Below are positions 54,831-62,704 of a stretch of 64,000 bases of DNA, one piece after another (position 1 is the stretch's first letter; each line of letters opens with the position of its first letter). Where the stretch lies: assembly GCA_021740785.1 (NCBI GenBank), contig JAIOZI010000010.1:1-64000 (forward strand). The letters are read 5' to 3'. A program made the translations under genes and the position numbers. This stretch comes from Melioribacteraceae bacterium. Lineage in GTDB: Bacteria; Bacteroidota; Ignavibacteria; Ignavibacteriales; Melioribacteraceae. Below the pieces are notes generated by a model. It had not been told where the DNA came from. It searched no databases and saw nothing but the letters and a program-made list of their open reading frames with translations.

Positions 54831-55817
54831 ATGAATTATACAATTACAAATTGGTTAGCACCGGAGAATTCTATTTTACCGGATTTTATTATCGGAGGTG
54901 CAATGAAATCTGGCACTTCTACTCTACATAGTATTTTAAATGAACATCCTAATGTGTTTATACCGAAGAATGAAATTAATTTTTTTGATATTGATAATAT
55001 TCTTCAACATAGTGATTTTAATTATTACTATAGATCAATTGATAAGTGGATAAATCAAAGTATGAACTCATTCCCAACTGAATTGTGGAGTTGGTATTCA
55101 CAACATTTTGAAGGGAAAAATGATCTAGTTATTGGTGAGGATTCAACTACTTATTTAGCATCTAAATTAGCTGCTAAGAGAATATCAATTCAGAAAAAAA
55201 AAATTAAGTTAGTCTTTACACTAAGACAACCAACTGAAAGAGCCTATTCTCAATACTGGCATATGCTTAGATCTGGTAGAGCCACACATAGTTTTGAAAG
55301 TACTTTGAAATTTAATCCTGAAACAGTTATTAATAGAAGTCTATATCTCGATCAATTGAAATGGTATTTTGAATTTTTAGAAAAAGATCAAATTATGGTA
55401 ATTATTTTTGAGGAGTTCTTGAAGGATAAGAATAAAATAATTTTTGAATTATGTTCATTTCTCAATTTGGATTTTAATCTTTTTCCTGAGGATGCAAAAA
55501 ATATTCATTCAAATCCAGCAATGATGCCAGTGTTTCCAAAACTCCAAGGCTTGAAAAATAAATTATTTAGAAGTCTCGGAAATCAAAGGTATATTAATTA
55601 CCTACCGCTTAAATCTGAATCATATGGAAAATTTGGAACCTTAATTCCGAAAGTTATTGAAAAAGCTCATAATACTGTGTTTAATCCGAGAATAAGTATG
55701 AAACCCCCAAAGATGCGAGAATCAACTAGAAATTTCTTGAATGAATATTTTATTTCTGAATTAAATGGATTGGATGAATTATTAGAAAGAGATGTGCTTT
55801 CTTTTTGGTTTGATTGA
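54831..55817 (+). CDS. PAPS-dependent sulfotransferase-domain protein
   Basis: A 328-aa cytosolic sulfotransferase related to the heparan-sulfate/polysaccharide group. The 5'-phosphosulfate loop is GGAMKSGTSTLHSILNEHPN at ~residues 22-41. The 3'-phosphate site is LRQPTERAYSQYWHML. It probably sulfates a sugar of the repeat unit before export. PAPS-forming genes (cysND/C) are not in the window. Confidence 0.83.
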   Translation: MNYTITNWLAPENSILPDFIIGGAMKSGTSTLHSILNEHPNVFIPKNEINFFDIDNILQHSDFNYYYRSIDKWINQSMNSFPTELWSWYSQHFEGKNDLVIGEDSTTYLASKLAAKRISIQKKKIKLVFTLRQPTERAYSQYWHMLRSGRATHSFESTLKFNPETVINRSLYLDQLKWYFEFLEKDQIMVIIFEEFLKDKNKIIFELCSFLNLDFNLFPEDAKNIHSNPAMMPVFPKLQGLKNKLFRSLGNQRYINYLPLKSESYGKFGTLIPKVIEKAHNTVFNPRISMKPPKMRESTRNFLNEYFISELNGLDELLERDVLSFWFD

Positions 55818-58615: not shown

Positions 58616-59332
58616 ATGAAAAAAACTATTGTAATTATTCCGACGTATAATGAACTGACAAATGTTCAAAAAATTGTTCATGATCTTCTTGAATTATATC
58701 CTGATTTTCACATCCTAATAGTAGACGATAATTCTCCGGACGGTACCGGAAAGCGTGTGAGAGAGATGGGTGAACAGGATAACAGAATTCAATTAATTGA
58801 AAGGGAAGGAAAACTTGGATTAGGTACTGCTTATGTAAAAGGATTCCAATACGCAATTAAGAATGATTATGATATTATAGTTCAAATGGATGCAGATTAC
58901 TCACATGATCCAAATGAAATAAAAACGTTTCTTAATATGCTTAGAAATTGTGATGTTGTAATCGGAAGCAGGTATGTATCGGGAGTAAATGTAATCAATT
59001 GGCCTATGGCAAGATTGTTATTAAGCTGGTTTGCAAATAAATACACAAAGGTAATTACCGGACTTCCTTTACAGGATTCAACTGGCGGATTTAAGTGTTT
59101 CAAAAAAGAAGTATTGCAGTCTATTAAATTGGATAGAATCGGTTCGAATGGTTACGCTTTCCAAATAGAAATGAATTTTTATGCATGGAAGAACGGATAT
59201 AAATTATGCGAATCTCCGATAATTTTCACTGACAGGGTAGAAGGCGATTCAAAGATGTCGAAGAAGATTGTATATGAAGCAGTATTCATGGTCTGGAAAC
59301 TTAGGTTTAGAAGTATATTTGGTTTATTATAA
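58616..59332 (+). CDS. Polyprenol-phosphate sugar transferase (DPM1-like GT2)
   Basis: A 238-aa GT2 enzyme similar to dolichol-phosphate mannose synthase. IIPTYNELTNVQKIVHDLLE begins the fold, LIVDDNSPDGTG follows, and MDADYSHDPNEI is the metal-binding DxD region. SRYVSGVNVINWP and DSTGGFKCFK are family motifs. It has no C-terminal membrane helices. It makes a polyprenyl-phosphate-linked hexose for a later transferase or for protein/lipid glycosylation. Confidence 0.88.
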   Translation: MKKTIVIIPTYNELTNVQKIVHDLLELYPDFHILIVDDNSPDGTGKRVREMGEQDNRIQLIEREGKLGLGTAYVKGFQYAIKNDYDIIVQMDADYSHDPNEIKTFLNMLRNCDVVIGSRYVSGVNVINWPMARLLLSWFANKYTKVITGLPLQDSTGGFKCFKKEVLQSIKLDRIGSNGYAFQIEMNFYAWKNGYKLCESPIIFTDRVEGDSKMSKKIVYEAVFMVWKLRFRSIFGLL

Positions 59333-59337
59333 AATTT

Positions 59338-61320
59338 ATGATTGACCTATCAATAATAATAGTGAACTATAATGTAAAAGAGTTTCTTCAGAATCTCTTT
59401 GCATCGATAGAAAAAGCTGCACAAAATTTATCGCATGAAATTATTGTAGTTGATAATGCATCGGATGACGGCAGCAGGGAATTGCTGGATGAAAAATATC
59501 CGGACGTAAAATTAATTGCCAACAAAAAGAATGTCGGTTTCGGTGTTGCGAATAATCAAGGTCTGGAAATTGCAAAGGGCAAATATATTTTATTGATCAA
59601 TCCCGATACAATTGTTAAAGAAGATACATTTACATCACTCATTAAATTTTTTGAAAACAATCCTGATGCCGGCATGGCTGGATGTAAAGTTCTAAATCCC
59701 GATGGTACATTACAATTAGCCTGCAGAAGATCATTTCCCGGACCTTGGGTTTCTTTCACTAAAGTTGCGGGACTAAGTAAAATTTTTCCGAAGAGCAAAT
59801 TATTTGCACAATATAATCTCACCTATCTTGATGAAAATCAGTCATACGAGGTTGATGCAATCTCCGGCGCTTTCATGATGATGCGTAAAGAAACTTATGA
59901 AAAAGTGGGCGGTTTTGATCCCCAGTTTTTTATGTACGGTGAAGATTTGGATCTGTGCTACAGAATCAAGTCGGCAGGTTTTAAAGTTTATTATGTACAT
60001 GAAACCGAAATAATTCATTATAAAGGTGAAAGCACTAAGCGGAGCAGCATTGACGAAACAAAAGTATTTTACGATGCAATGATGATATTTGTTAGAAAAC
60101 ATCTTTCGTCATCTTTACTGGTAAAACTAATTCTTCAATTTGCAATTTTGCTTCGTCAAACATTAGCGTTTATAAACGTATACCGTTTGGTAATTATCTC
60201 AATTTTTATTGATTTGGTTTTATTCAACTCAGCCATTTATGCAGCCGAGAAATTATACAATCCGGGTTCGTGGCCTGGATTTCCCGAGTATGTAAAGCCG
60301 TGGATTTATTTCGTTCCCTCTTTGATTCAGATAATAATTTCTGCTCTCGGAGGTGCTTATGGAAAGAAAACTCTCAGCGTACTCCGTGTGCTTGTTTCTC
60401 TATTTGTCGGATTGATTTTTATATCATCGATTACATTTTTCTTTAAGCAGTTCGCCTTCAGCCGCGCAATCGTACTGATTACTTATGGTTTCCTAATTAT
60501 TCTTTACCCGCTATGGAGGATTATTAGTAAAGTTGTATTTAAGGTTGGACTGATTCACGAAACGAAAAAATATAAAACAATAATTGTAGGAACCGATCAA
60601 AAAGCTCGAAAACTTTTTTCAGCAATGAAAAGCACATTGGTTAGAGTTCATAACGTTCTCGGATTTGTAAGTTATACTCACAAAGAAGTGGGCGAAAAAA
60701 TCGATAATATTGAAGTCATAGGTTCAGTCGAAAATTTGAAAAGGGTAATTAAAGAAAATCATGTTGACAAAGTTATTTTCTCATCGAACGAAATTTCCTT
60801 TAACAAAATATTTTCTATTGTATCTCAATGCCAGGGTGAAAATGTTGAATTTTTACTAGCGGGAAACGAACTTGATTATTTAGTCGGGAAATCTGCCGTA
60901 ACAATGCTGGATGATATCGCGTTGTTAAAAGTCCAGTACAATATTTCCGCATTCACTCATTCTGTTATCAAATCGGTTTTCGATATCAGTATTTCAATCA
61001 TAATTTTGCTTTTAGTTTATCCTTTCTTATTTTTGGCGGACAAGTTGGGCAAAAGAAAAACTGATTTTTCAAAATTTATTCTCGGAACTCCATCGGTATT
61101 ATTTCGGAAGAAAAGTTTCGTTGGACCTAGAGACGAATCATTTCATAATGGATTATTCATAGGTAAGATTGGTTTAACGGGTTTGTGGTATACTGAGGAG
61201 TATAATCACGATGATGCAACTGAGCTGAATAATCTTGATGTTTATTATGCAAAAAATCAAAACATCTGGCTTGATTTGGAAATACTGGGAAAATCATTTT
61301 CTAAAATGTTTATTAATTAG
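59338..61320 (+). CDS. GT2 glycosyltransferase fused to degenerate sugar-phosphate transferase
   Basis: A 660-aa fusion. Residues 1-~260 form a GT2 rhamnosyltransferase-type domain ([61 protein letters not shown]). About four transmembrane helices follow (~280-400), then a CoA_binding_3-like domain (~415-525, [20 protein letters not shown]). A C-terminal WbaP-like part has a membrane segment ([20 protein letters not shown]), SFVGPRDE and [12 protein letters not shown], but lacks the KFRSM and IDELPQ catalytic blocks. So only the GT2 half is likely active. The WbaP part may act as a membrane scaffold. Confidence 0.85.
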
Positions 61321-61328
61321 AGGAAAAA

Positions 61329-62279
61329 ATGGCTAAAAATATATTGGAGTTCGAAAAGCCGATTATTGAACTTGAGAATAAAATTGAAGAGATGCGTAAG
61401 TATGAAGATAACCTCGATATAAAAGAAGAAATCACCCTTCTTGAAGATAAGGTTACGAAGCTGAAAGAAAACATTTATGATAATTTAACCCGCTGGCAGA
61501 GAGTACAATTAGCGCGTCACCCGGAGCGACCGTTTACATTAGATTATCTTTATTTGATGACAAACGATTTTGTTGAACTTCATGGCGACCGATACTACAG
61601 AGATGATAATGCAATTGTTGGCGGTTTCGCGATGCTTGAAGATCAGAAGGTTATGATTATCGGGCATCAAAAAGGTCGTGATACAAAATCCAATCTTTTT
61701 AGAAATTTCGGAATGCCGAATCCCGAAGGATATAGAAAAGCTCTCCGGTTAATGAAGCTCGCTGAAAAATTCAACAGACCTGTAATAACCTTGCTCGATA
61801 CACCCGGCGCTTATCCCGGGTTGGAAGCTGAACAGAACGGTCAAGCTGAAGCGATAGCACGAAACCTATTTGAAATGAGCCGTCTGCAGGTTCCGATAGT
61901 TGTTGTTATAATAGGTGAAGGCGCAAGCGGTGGCGCACTTGGTATCGGAGTTGGTGATAGAATTTTGATGCTCGAAAATACATGGTACTCGGTCATAAGT
62001 CCGGAATCATGTTCAAGCATTTTATGGAGAAGCTGGGATTACAAAGAACAAGCAGCCGAATCATTAAGACTTACGGCAAAGGATTTATTGGAACAAAAAA
62101 TTATTGATAGAATTGTTGCGGAACCGTTGGGCGGTGCTCACAAAAATCATATAAAGATTGCCGAAACATTGAAAGAAATTTTACTCGAAGAATTAAAAGA
62201 GCTAACGAAAATAAAACCCGATAAATTAGTTCAGAACCGTTTGGAAAAATTTGGTTCGATGGGCGTATACGTTGAATAG
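61329..62279 (+). CDS. accA: Acetyl-CoA carboxylase carboxyltransferase subunit alpha
   Basis: A 316-aa subunit that, with AccD, transfers the carboxyl group from biotin to acetyl-CoA to form malonyl-CoA. It has the N-terminal helical region ([16 protein letters not shown]), the family motifs [17 protein letters not shown] and [14 protein letters not shown], and the oxyanion-hole loop [15 protein letters not shown]. Length is standard. accD is not in the window. It sits 8 bp behind the GT2-fusion gene. Confidence 0.96.
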
Positions 62280-62284
62280 AAATT

Positions 62285-62704
62285 ATGATTAAAAACAAAA
62301 CCATTATCCGTGTCAGGTATGCCGATACCGATAAAATGCAGATTGTTTATAACGGGAAGTATTTGGAATATTTTGAAGTAGGACGTACCGAACTTTTGCG
62401 CAGTGTAGGTTTGCCCTACAACGAAGTTGAAAAACATGGTTACCAGCTTCCGCTTATTGAAGCCGGAGTAAAGTATAAAAGTCCCGCTTTTTACGATGAT
62501 TTATTGGAGATTGAATCAACTAATAACTCTTTATACTCAGCCAAAGTAAAAATTGAATATATTATCAGAAGAAAAGAAACCGGTGAAATTGTTACCGAAG
62601 GTTTTACAGAACATGTTTTTGTAAGGGTTGAGGATAGAAAACCGGTTCGACCTCCAAAGTTTTACATTGATTCGCTTGCAGAATTTTTCGAAGTAGATAA
62701 ATAA
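62285..62704 (+). CDS. YbgC/4HBT-family acyl-CoA thioesterase
   Basis: A 139-aa hotdog-fold thioesterase. RVRYADTDKMQIVYNGKYLE carries the catalytic Asp (YADTD) and the following family motif. It starts 5 bp after accA and is probably co-transcribed. In many bacteria this family hydrolyses short acyl-CoA; 4-hydroxybenzoyl-CoA activity is also known. Location next to accA is consistent with acyl-CoA turnover. Confidence 0.88.
   Translation: MIKNKTIIRVRYADTDKMQIVYNGKYLEYFEVGRTELLRSVGLPYNEVEKHGYQLPLIEAGVKYKSPAFYDDLLEIESTNNSLYSAKVKIEYIIRRKETGEIVTEGFTEHVFVRVEDRKPVRPPKFYIDSLAEFFEVDK

Follow-up and report, generated by a model that had tools for sequence, protein, structure and literature searches.

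The closest described relatives of the protein analysed here are the Lg-PGTs WbaP, WcaJ and CpsE (TIGR03025, PF13727 + PF02397). The WbaP dimer is joined by helix 3 and, for the most part, by the hairpin of the DUF, as described in the accessible part of the source (PMC10942596). Bi-PGTs, in which a further functional domain is covalently joined to a monoPGT fold and sits on its catalytic domain, are already known, and the same part of that paper connects membrane-bound metabolons with an aim that the field has long pursued (PMC10942596). In Myxococcus, EpsW is proposed to act on the initiating step through the dimer of the Lg-PGT EpsZ, as in the proposal made below; EpsW is, however, a response regulator and not a pseudo-PGT, and EpsZ appears without the hairpin in the models of that paper, as far as its available text goes (PMC12802240). 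Contact between step one and step two of a lipid-linked glycan has precedent by other means, because the respective enzymes interact at the membrane in the pairs MraY-MurG and Alg7-Alg13/14 (PMC8993221, accessible part).

The window is the whole stretch of 64,000 nucleotides that was analysed, taken from contig JAIOZI010000010.1 of a Melioribacteraceae bacterium, whose genome comprises 4.85 Mb in 115 contigs. It encodes a fusion protein (Table 1) that has the helical bundle, the DUF, the re-entrant helix, the C-terminal motifs and, putatively, the hairpin position in common with WbaP, WcaJ and CpsE. Unlike these enzymes, the fusion is without the Asp-Glu dyad and the KFRSM segment and carries a GT2 at its N-terminus. 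It resembles the Bi-PGTs in the covalent joining of a further functional domain to the monoPGT fold, but the catalytic core, on which the partner of a Bi-PGT sits, is absent, which places it outside that group as the accessible part of the paper describes it (PMC10942596).

Table 1. Coordinates of the fusion and its parts, of the neighbouring genes and of the WecA fusions in relatives (window positions unless a locus is named)
Feature	Position	Strand	Basis
GT2 - pseudo-Lg-PGT fusion, 660 aa	59338..61320	+	ORF; Pfam/NCBIfam domains
GT2 catalytic domain, residues 5-245	59350..60072	+	PF00535; invariant columns; fold matches
Lg-PGT-type transmembrane helical bundle, residues 281-401, FSR motif	60178..60540	+	models; alignment
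CoA_binding_3/DUF Rossmann-like domain, residues 412-508	60571..60861	+	PF13727; model strands; structure matches
beta-hairpin region, residues 515-531, where WbaP has its dimer-swap hairpin	60880..60930	+	model strands, low confidence; position presumed from alignment
re-entrant membrane helix, residues 539-570	60952..61047	+	helix-break-helix in models; conserved columns
junction, catalytic segment (KFRSM...IDELPQ) missing	61048..61095	+	alignment with intact neighbour; Bac_transf profile 1-96 unmatched
retained C-terminal part of Bac_transf fold, residues 587-658, with 13 protein letters (not shown) before number 637, and D646	61096..61311	+	PF02397 positions 97-178
intact Lg-PGT, 467 aa	57182..58585	+	TIGR03025 451.9 bits, over cut-off; Bac_transf 1-178; KFRSM, IDELPQ present
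GT2 likened to DPM1, 238 aa, between PGT and fusion	58616..59332	+	PF00535; order conserved in relatives
presumed accA-like acetyl-CoA carboxylase subunit, downstream neighbour	61329..62279	+	sequence likeness
WecA-Lg-PGT fusions	L025:2271-4799; L027:3536-5989; L322-L353		

The initial annotation had described a GT2 fused to a C-terminal half of Lg-PGT type with membrane helices, a CoA_binding_3 domain and end motifs, and the Pfam searches and the models agree with this description. PF00535 was matched at residues 5-189 with 90.5 bits (cut-off 23.3) and CoA_binding_3 at residues 343-507 with 54.3 bits (cut-off 25). The Bac_transf profile was matched only at positions 97-178 of 179 (residues 587-658, 38.1 bits), and TIGR03025 (NCBIfam) gave two stretches with 140.3 bits, under its cut-off of 295.55. 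The C-terminal half is 19% identical to the intact neighbouring PGT (BLASTP, E 1e-9). The re-entrant-helix motif (KSVFD...P), 12 further motif letters (not shown) and the late Tyr and Asp are all present in the fusion, and KFRSM and DE, sought by reading the sequence and by alignment with the intact neighbour, are absent. The absence of the KFRSM...IDELPQ segment with its Asp-Glu, also claimed at the outset, is borne out by this alignment, by the partial Bac_transf match and by the family as a whole, as described below.

In an alignment of 38 sequences (A1), N88-P89-D90 and E202-D203 of the GT2 are invariant; we take these columns to be the nucleotide-binding and base motifs. The fold of the GT2 resembles those of the fucosyltransferase WrtF and the rhamnosyltransferase RmlT (structure search, Z about 22-24). 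Judged from its sequence, the GT2 half looks like an intact glycosyltransferase of the active type. S375, K545, D549, Y637 and D646 of the C-terminal half are likewise invariant in A1, and P562 of the re-entrant helix is kept in at least 90% of its rows.

The VIA-align rows for the whole fusion span residues 1-278 only, and the C-terminal half was therefore modelled and searched alone. Its AlphaFold2 model has a mean pLDDT of 81 and a pTM of 0.55, compared with a pTM of 0.51 for the model of the whole fusion. In the whole model, the helical bundle is predicted as four long helices between residues 283 and 401. The best structure match is WbaP (8t53, Z 13.7, 321 residues), with an rmsd of 15.7, so that the domains are placed differently from those of WbaP. 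PglC (8e37) matches residues 283-405 of the model (Z 11.3, 120 residues, rmsd 2.8), and this match takes in the re-entrant helix and the retained C-terminal part of Bac_transf. For the DUF, matches were obtained to 3nkl (Z 13.4, 111 residues) and to WbaP 8t53 (Z 13.7). At the hairpin position, strands are predicted at residues 521-524 and 527-531 with low confidence beside them (pLDDT below 50 at 513-518 of the whole model and at 258-265 of the C-terminal half). From the retained motifs and the model matches to WbaP and PglC, the remnant is therefore predicted to keep the shell of a PGT without the core. The models also predict that it keeps the parts that seat an Lg-PGT in the membrane and join its dimer, namely the bundle, the DUF, the hairpin region and the re-entrant helix.

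The family set was built by adding 55 + 60 + 20 stretches to the loci of the contig scan described below and removing identical sequences, which gave 175 distinct best ORFs, of which four were dropped. Not one of the 171 distinct family proteins, the fusion of the window counted in, has the Asp-Glu dyad. The dyad columns were mapped with a profile built from 92 PGTs of 440-500 aa, the window's own and 91 others from the loci; nothing is aligned there in 170 proteins, and the 'DR' of the remaining one (L244) is a chance alignment. PGT-like ORFs at the same loci, with identical copies kept, have DE in 114 of 119 cases and YK in four, and one is an N-terminal fragment. A relative with an intact dyad was also sought among proteins of odd length (L168-L172, L242-L244), leaving out the long-frame match of G203, and none was found. 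One of them, L172, a relative of 850 aa, carries low-complexity insertions such as TGETGETGG in and around the site of the missing segment, and it has no dyad.

A search of 58 genomes, the fusion's own included, with the C-terminal half gave strong matches, all at E 1e-28 or better, in 56. None of these 56 matches has an internal stop; 54 lie in frames of 659-717 aa, the others in frames of 573 and 419 aa. Many of the genomes also have a weak match to the intact PGT, which lies a few kb off, and the match in G019 is its PGT only. A scan of contigs yielded 44 loci, including some from KSB1, Caldithrix/Calditrichia, Marinimicrobia, Bacteroidales, Flavobacteria and Saprospiraceae; among the 44, L051 encodes a different protein and the sequence of L043 is broken by N. 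The family ranges over Ignavibacteria, Bacteroidota, Calditrichota, KSB1 and Marinimicrobia. The same fusion, which the initial annotation had suggested seeking in relatives, is found across several phyla, and the search brought up no relative with the dyad, the observation that it had named as pointing to a local deletion.

A tree was computed for 73 modules, of which 41 are gutted, 25 PGT and 7 WecA-PGT; it is unrooted and was made by a quick method. All gutted modules fall on one side of a branch (SH-aLRT 100), and those fused to WecA make up one clade (99). Of the 42 family proteins picked for it, L184 was dropped, the trimming motif being wanting, and F_L245 and F_L182 have long end branches. 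Columns filled in less than half of the rows were removed, which should take out the catalytic segment. Recent duplication of the gene two upstream is ruled out as the origin of the module, which stands on an old separate branch of this tree. The dN/dS is 0.02-0.11 for the module, 0.01-0.06 for the GT2 and 0.04-0.17 for residues 531-660 (11 within-genus pairs from two genera); dS of the module is below 1 in five pairs and above 1 in the other six, for which the values are rough. Going by these ratios, the remnant is under purifying selection and less tightly kept than the GT2. Among the 104 fusions with an aligned C-terminal part, the Lys and the Asp of the re-entrant helix are each kept in 103, the Tyr and the Asp of the last helices in all 104 and the Gly of PG(L/I)TG in 91. 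Bacteroidota forms of the fusion have lost further motifs. On the sequence evidence, the missing segment is an old and general feature of the family and not a local one.

The intact homologue that had been reported two genes upstream of the fusion is indeed there, and it matches Bac_transf with 239.8 bits. It is likely the initiating enzyme and is the proposed partner of the fusion. The gaps are 30 bp from the PGT to the DPM1-like gene, 5 bp from there to the fusion and 8 bp from the fusion to accA. Besides the fusion, the genome of the window encodes three Bac_transf proteins, the neighbour (468-aa frame) and one each on C39 (470) and C15 (284). Neighbourhoods were compared at the 131 loci flanked by 4 kb or more on either side. 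At most 5 kb from the family gene and on its strand, a PGT is found at 82 of them (WecA-fused ones counted), a DPM1-like gene at 79, accA at 96, ybgC at 73 and a flippase at 51. All 82 PGT-bearing loci belong to the 121 long forms and none to the 10 short forms, and no PGT gene lies within 5 kb at 49 of the 131 loci. The PGT-free loci include L031-L033, L037, L041, L042 and L044-L049 of Bacteroidota, L030 of Marinimicrobia and L052 of KSB1; in L031, L033, L037, L042 and L046 the gene lies among what we take to be housekeeping genes. The order varies between relatives, either PGT, DPM and fusion or fusion, PGT and DPM.

Further observations concern the surroundings of the fusion. The genes for accA and a ybgC-like thioesterase (61329-62704) follow directly 3' of it, a linkage that is kept in distant relatives. 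At L121 (G040:C201), the Lg-PGT beside the fusion is split into frames of 147 and 253 aa with several stops in the match, which is a frameshift in the genome or in the assembly. A sulfotransferase (PF00685/PF13469) is encoded at 54831-55817, in the same stretch as polysaccharide genes, and the glycan of the stretch may, by this gene content, be sulfated. For protein O-glycosylation in Bacteroidota, the available text of PMC12871550 describes conserved-core machinery that is encoded elsewhere in the genome. The widely kept GT2, with its modelled fold matches to fucosyl- and rhamnosyltransferases, is a candidate for an O-glycosylation core enzyme; a literature search for a link between this GT2 and O-glycosylation in Bacteroidota found no paper.

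In Calditrichota, the gene upstream of the fusion (L025, L027-L029) encodes a protein of 817-842 aa, which in the scanned loci L025 and L027 consists of PF00953 (WecA/MraY type), CoA_binding_3 and Bac_transf. L027 belongs to genome G421, and 35 of the 40 genomes of its phylum gave a WecA-Lg-PGT match. The dyad is replaced by Tyr-Lys in 31 of the 32 distinct WecA-fused proteins read from this phylum and by Asn-Arg in the other one. The motifs of the re-entrant helix, SxVGPR and PGxTG (once PGxSG) are kept, as is that of the last helix in all rows but one, which ends early. The N..NL.DG motif of the WecA half is present at 31 of 32 loci, the exception being L330, which is split by a stop. At all 28 loci with at least 600 bp visible downstream, the next gene is the GT2 fusion, often seen in part; the gap is -4 to +40 bp in 25 of them and 98, 368 and 850 bp in the others. 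Four further loci end after 0-436 bp and stand outside the 28. G421 has two such pairs (C17, C139). An ordinary-sized active Lg-PGT was sought in this genome and not found, the other three Bac_transf matches lying in frames of 235-337 aa. If the assembly is complete, the fusion is therefore independent of an active Lg-PGT in G421, and the obvious Lg-PGT fold for it to pair with would be the dead module borne by WecA. Four WecA-Lg-PGT fusions at other loci (L035, 1639-4119; L173; L190; L195), each 826-828 aa long, retain Asp-Glu and apparently combine two different initiating enzymes in one chain.

The 150 places listed from a phylum sample of 296 genomes break down into 130 full-length, 6 intermediate and 12 short matches and 2 that are truncated at one end. 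Absences in the phylum surveys are soft, because only four candidates were scored per genome. Ten short forms of 345-417 aa, L046-L049 from the contig scan and L254-L259 from the phylum survey, appear by reading to be without the membrane bundle and the re-entrant helix. In an hhalign comparison, the tails of these ten proteins match the long forms' DUF with a probability of 96.3 (E 1.8e-9). The short forms keep only the GT2 and a reduced DUF, and the DUF is therefore the part retained longest. A TIGR03025 match at E 1e-110 or better is present in every one of the 136 genomes that have a full or intermediate form at a listed place; this co-occurrence of fusion and Lg-PGT is confounded by shared ancestry. 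A comparison of 214/214 matched with 49/82 unmatched genomes having TIGR03025 was withdrawn as evidence, the matches being partly to another GT2; at 1e-60, TIGR03025 also picks up small PGTs. The survey tally of 214/296 is too high for the family, because this other GT2 was counted in at least one family. Of the 30 genomes concerned in family 27, 13 were inspected closely (L264-L276, L291-L303). The match there is to a different GT2, with frames of 325-363 aa and about 30-34% identity to a short form. It is encoded some 2.5-5.3 kb away from a small PGT whose frames measure 240-281 aa, and the two possibly form a local glycan cluster.

We propose that the dead Lg-PGT module may be a docking chassis that holds the GT2 beside the Lg-PGT fold of the initiating enzyme, a reading to which we give about an even chance. 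The module would have retained the parts that sit in the membrane and dimerise, with the parts for chemistry gone, and it would pair with that fold in the way one WbaP chain pairs with another. Its partner would be the intact PGT in the window and the WecA-pseudoPGT fusion in Calditrichota. The lipid-linked first sugar would be handed over to the fused GT2, which would perform the second addition, and in Calditrichota steps one and two would both ride on dead modules. With somewhat less confidence, we suggest that, in the bacterial groups sampled, the Lg-PGT fold became a non-catalytic docking system for the assembly of lipid-linked glycans and that in Calditrichota two dead modules heterodimerise and thereby couple the first step to the second. 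What we infer is that PGT activity has been lost, that the two proteins pair, that the substrate is handed over and that the GT2 carries out step two. The scaffold role that the initial annotation suggested, with the GT2 kept close to the initiating enzyme, has indirect support from the conserved neighbourhood, the retained dimerising parts and the gene pairs of Calditrichota. MurG and Alg13/14, the step-two enzymes of the precedents named above, are GT-B enzymes, and we know of no PGT-fold pseudoenzyme that is involved in MraY-MurG or Alg7-Alg13/14.

Several points speak against docking. The module could equally form homodimers, and a PGT gene within 5 kb is missing at 49 of 131 loci, including all 10 short forms, which would need another route to a membrane partner. 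The models add a modest pTM, a hairpin of low confidence and the large rmsd of the superposition on WbaP.

The main rival takes up the homodimer. The pseudo-PGT might be a homodimeric membrane anchor and acceptor holder, whose re-entrant helix and remaining half-pocket present the polyprenyl-diphosphate sugar to the GT2 while the initiating enzyme is left untouched. We consider this doubtful, though clearly worth weighing. The near-complete retention of residues in the re-entrant and last helices (103-104 of 104; Gly 91 of 104) and the occurrence of the fusion at loci without a nearby PGT gene would both fit an anchor; such a role leaves unexplained, however, why the DUF is kept in short forms that lose helices and pocket, and why the linkage to PGT or WecA-pseudoPGT genes is so tight.

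The DUF, as the part that the short forms retain, could instead sense UMP or UDP-sugars, with the dead module tuning the flux of the pathway in a mixed dimer with the PGT. We know of no nucleotide-site residues of the DUF against which the fusion could be checked. The isolated DUF of WbaP is stabilised by UMP, UDP and UTP, and UMP inhibits WbaP, according to the accessible part of PMC10942596; EpsW is proposed to activate EpsZ through the EpsZ dimer in the available text of PMC12802240. A covalently attached GT2 is, however, not needed for regulation, and we regard this role as improbable.

It is very improbable that the module still carries out a residual or changed reaction through other residues; the conservation of the remnant and the purifying selection on it speak for such a reaction, but all 171 family proteins examined are without the dyad and the Bacteroidota forms lose further motifs. 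A local deletion, an assembly error or a decaying pseudogene, for which only the missing segment itself speaks, is rejected as next to impossible, since no family protein among the 171 has the dyad, none of the 56 strong matches has an internal stop and dN/dS is well below 1.

A literature search, which was thin on subscription journals, found no PGT pseudoenzyme, no fusion of a GT2 to a dead PGT and no WecA-Lg-PGT fusion. The Calditrichota WecA fusions score well over the Bac_transf cut-off despite having no dyad. The findings suggest that some proteins, these fusions among them, will be wrongly labelled active PGTs when annotation relies on a Bac_transf or CoA_binding_3 match only. The pseudo-PGT fusion would bear on the question of how the successive enzymes of undecaprenyl-linked glycan assembly are held together. 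A pseudoenzyme that arose from the initiating enzyme, is fused to the next enzyme and occurs across phyla would be a natural tether between the two, and would provide a definite protein pair that can be tested.
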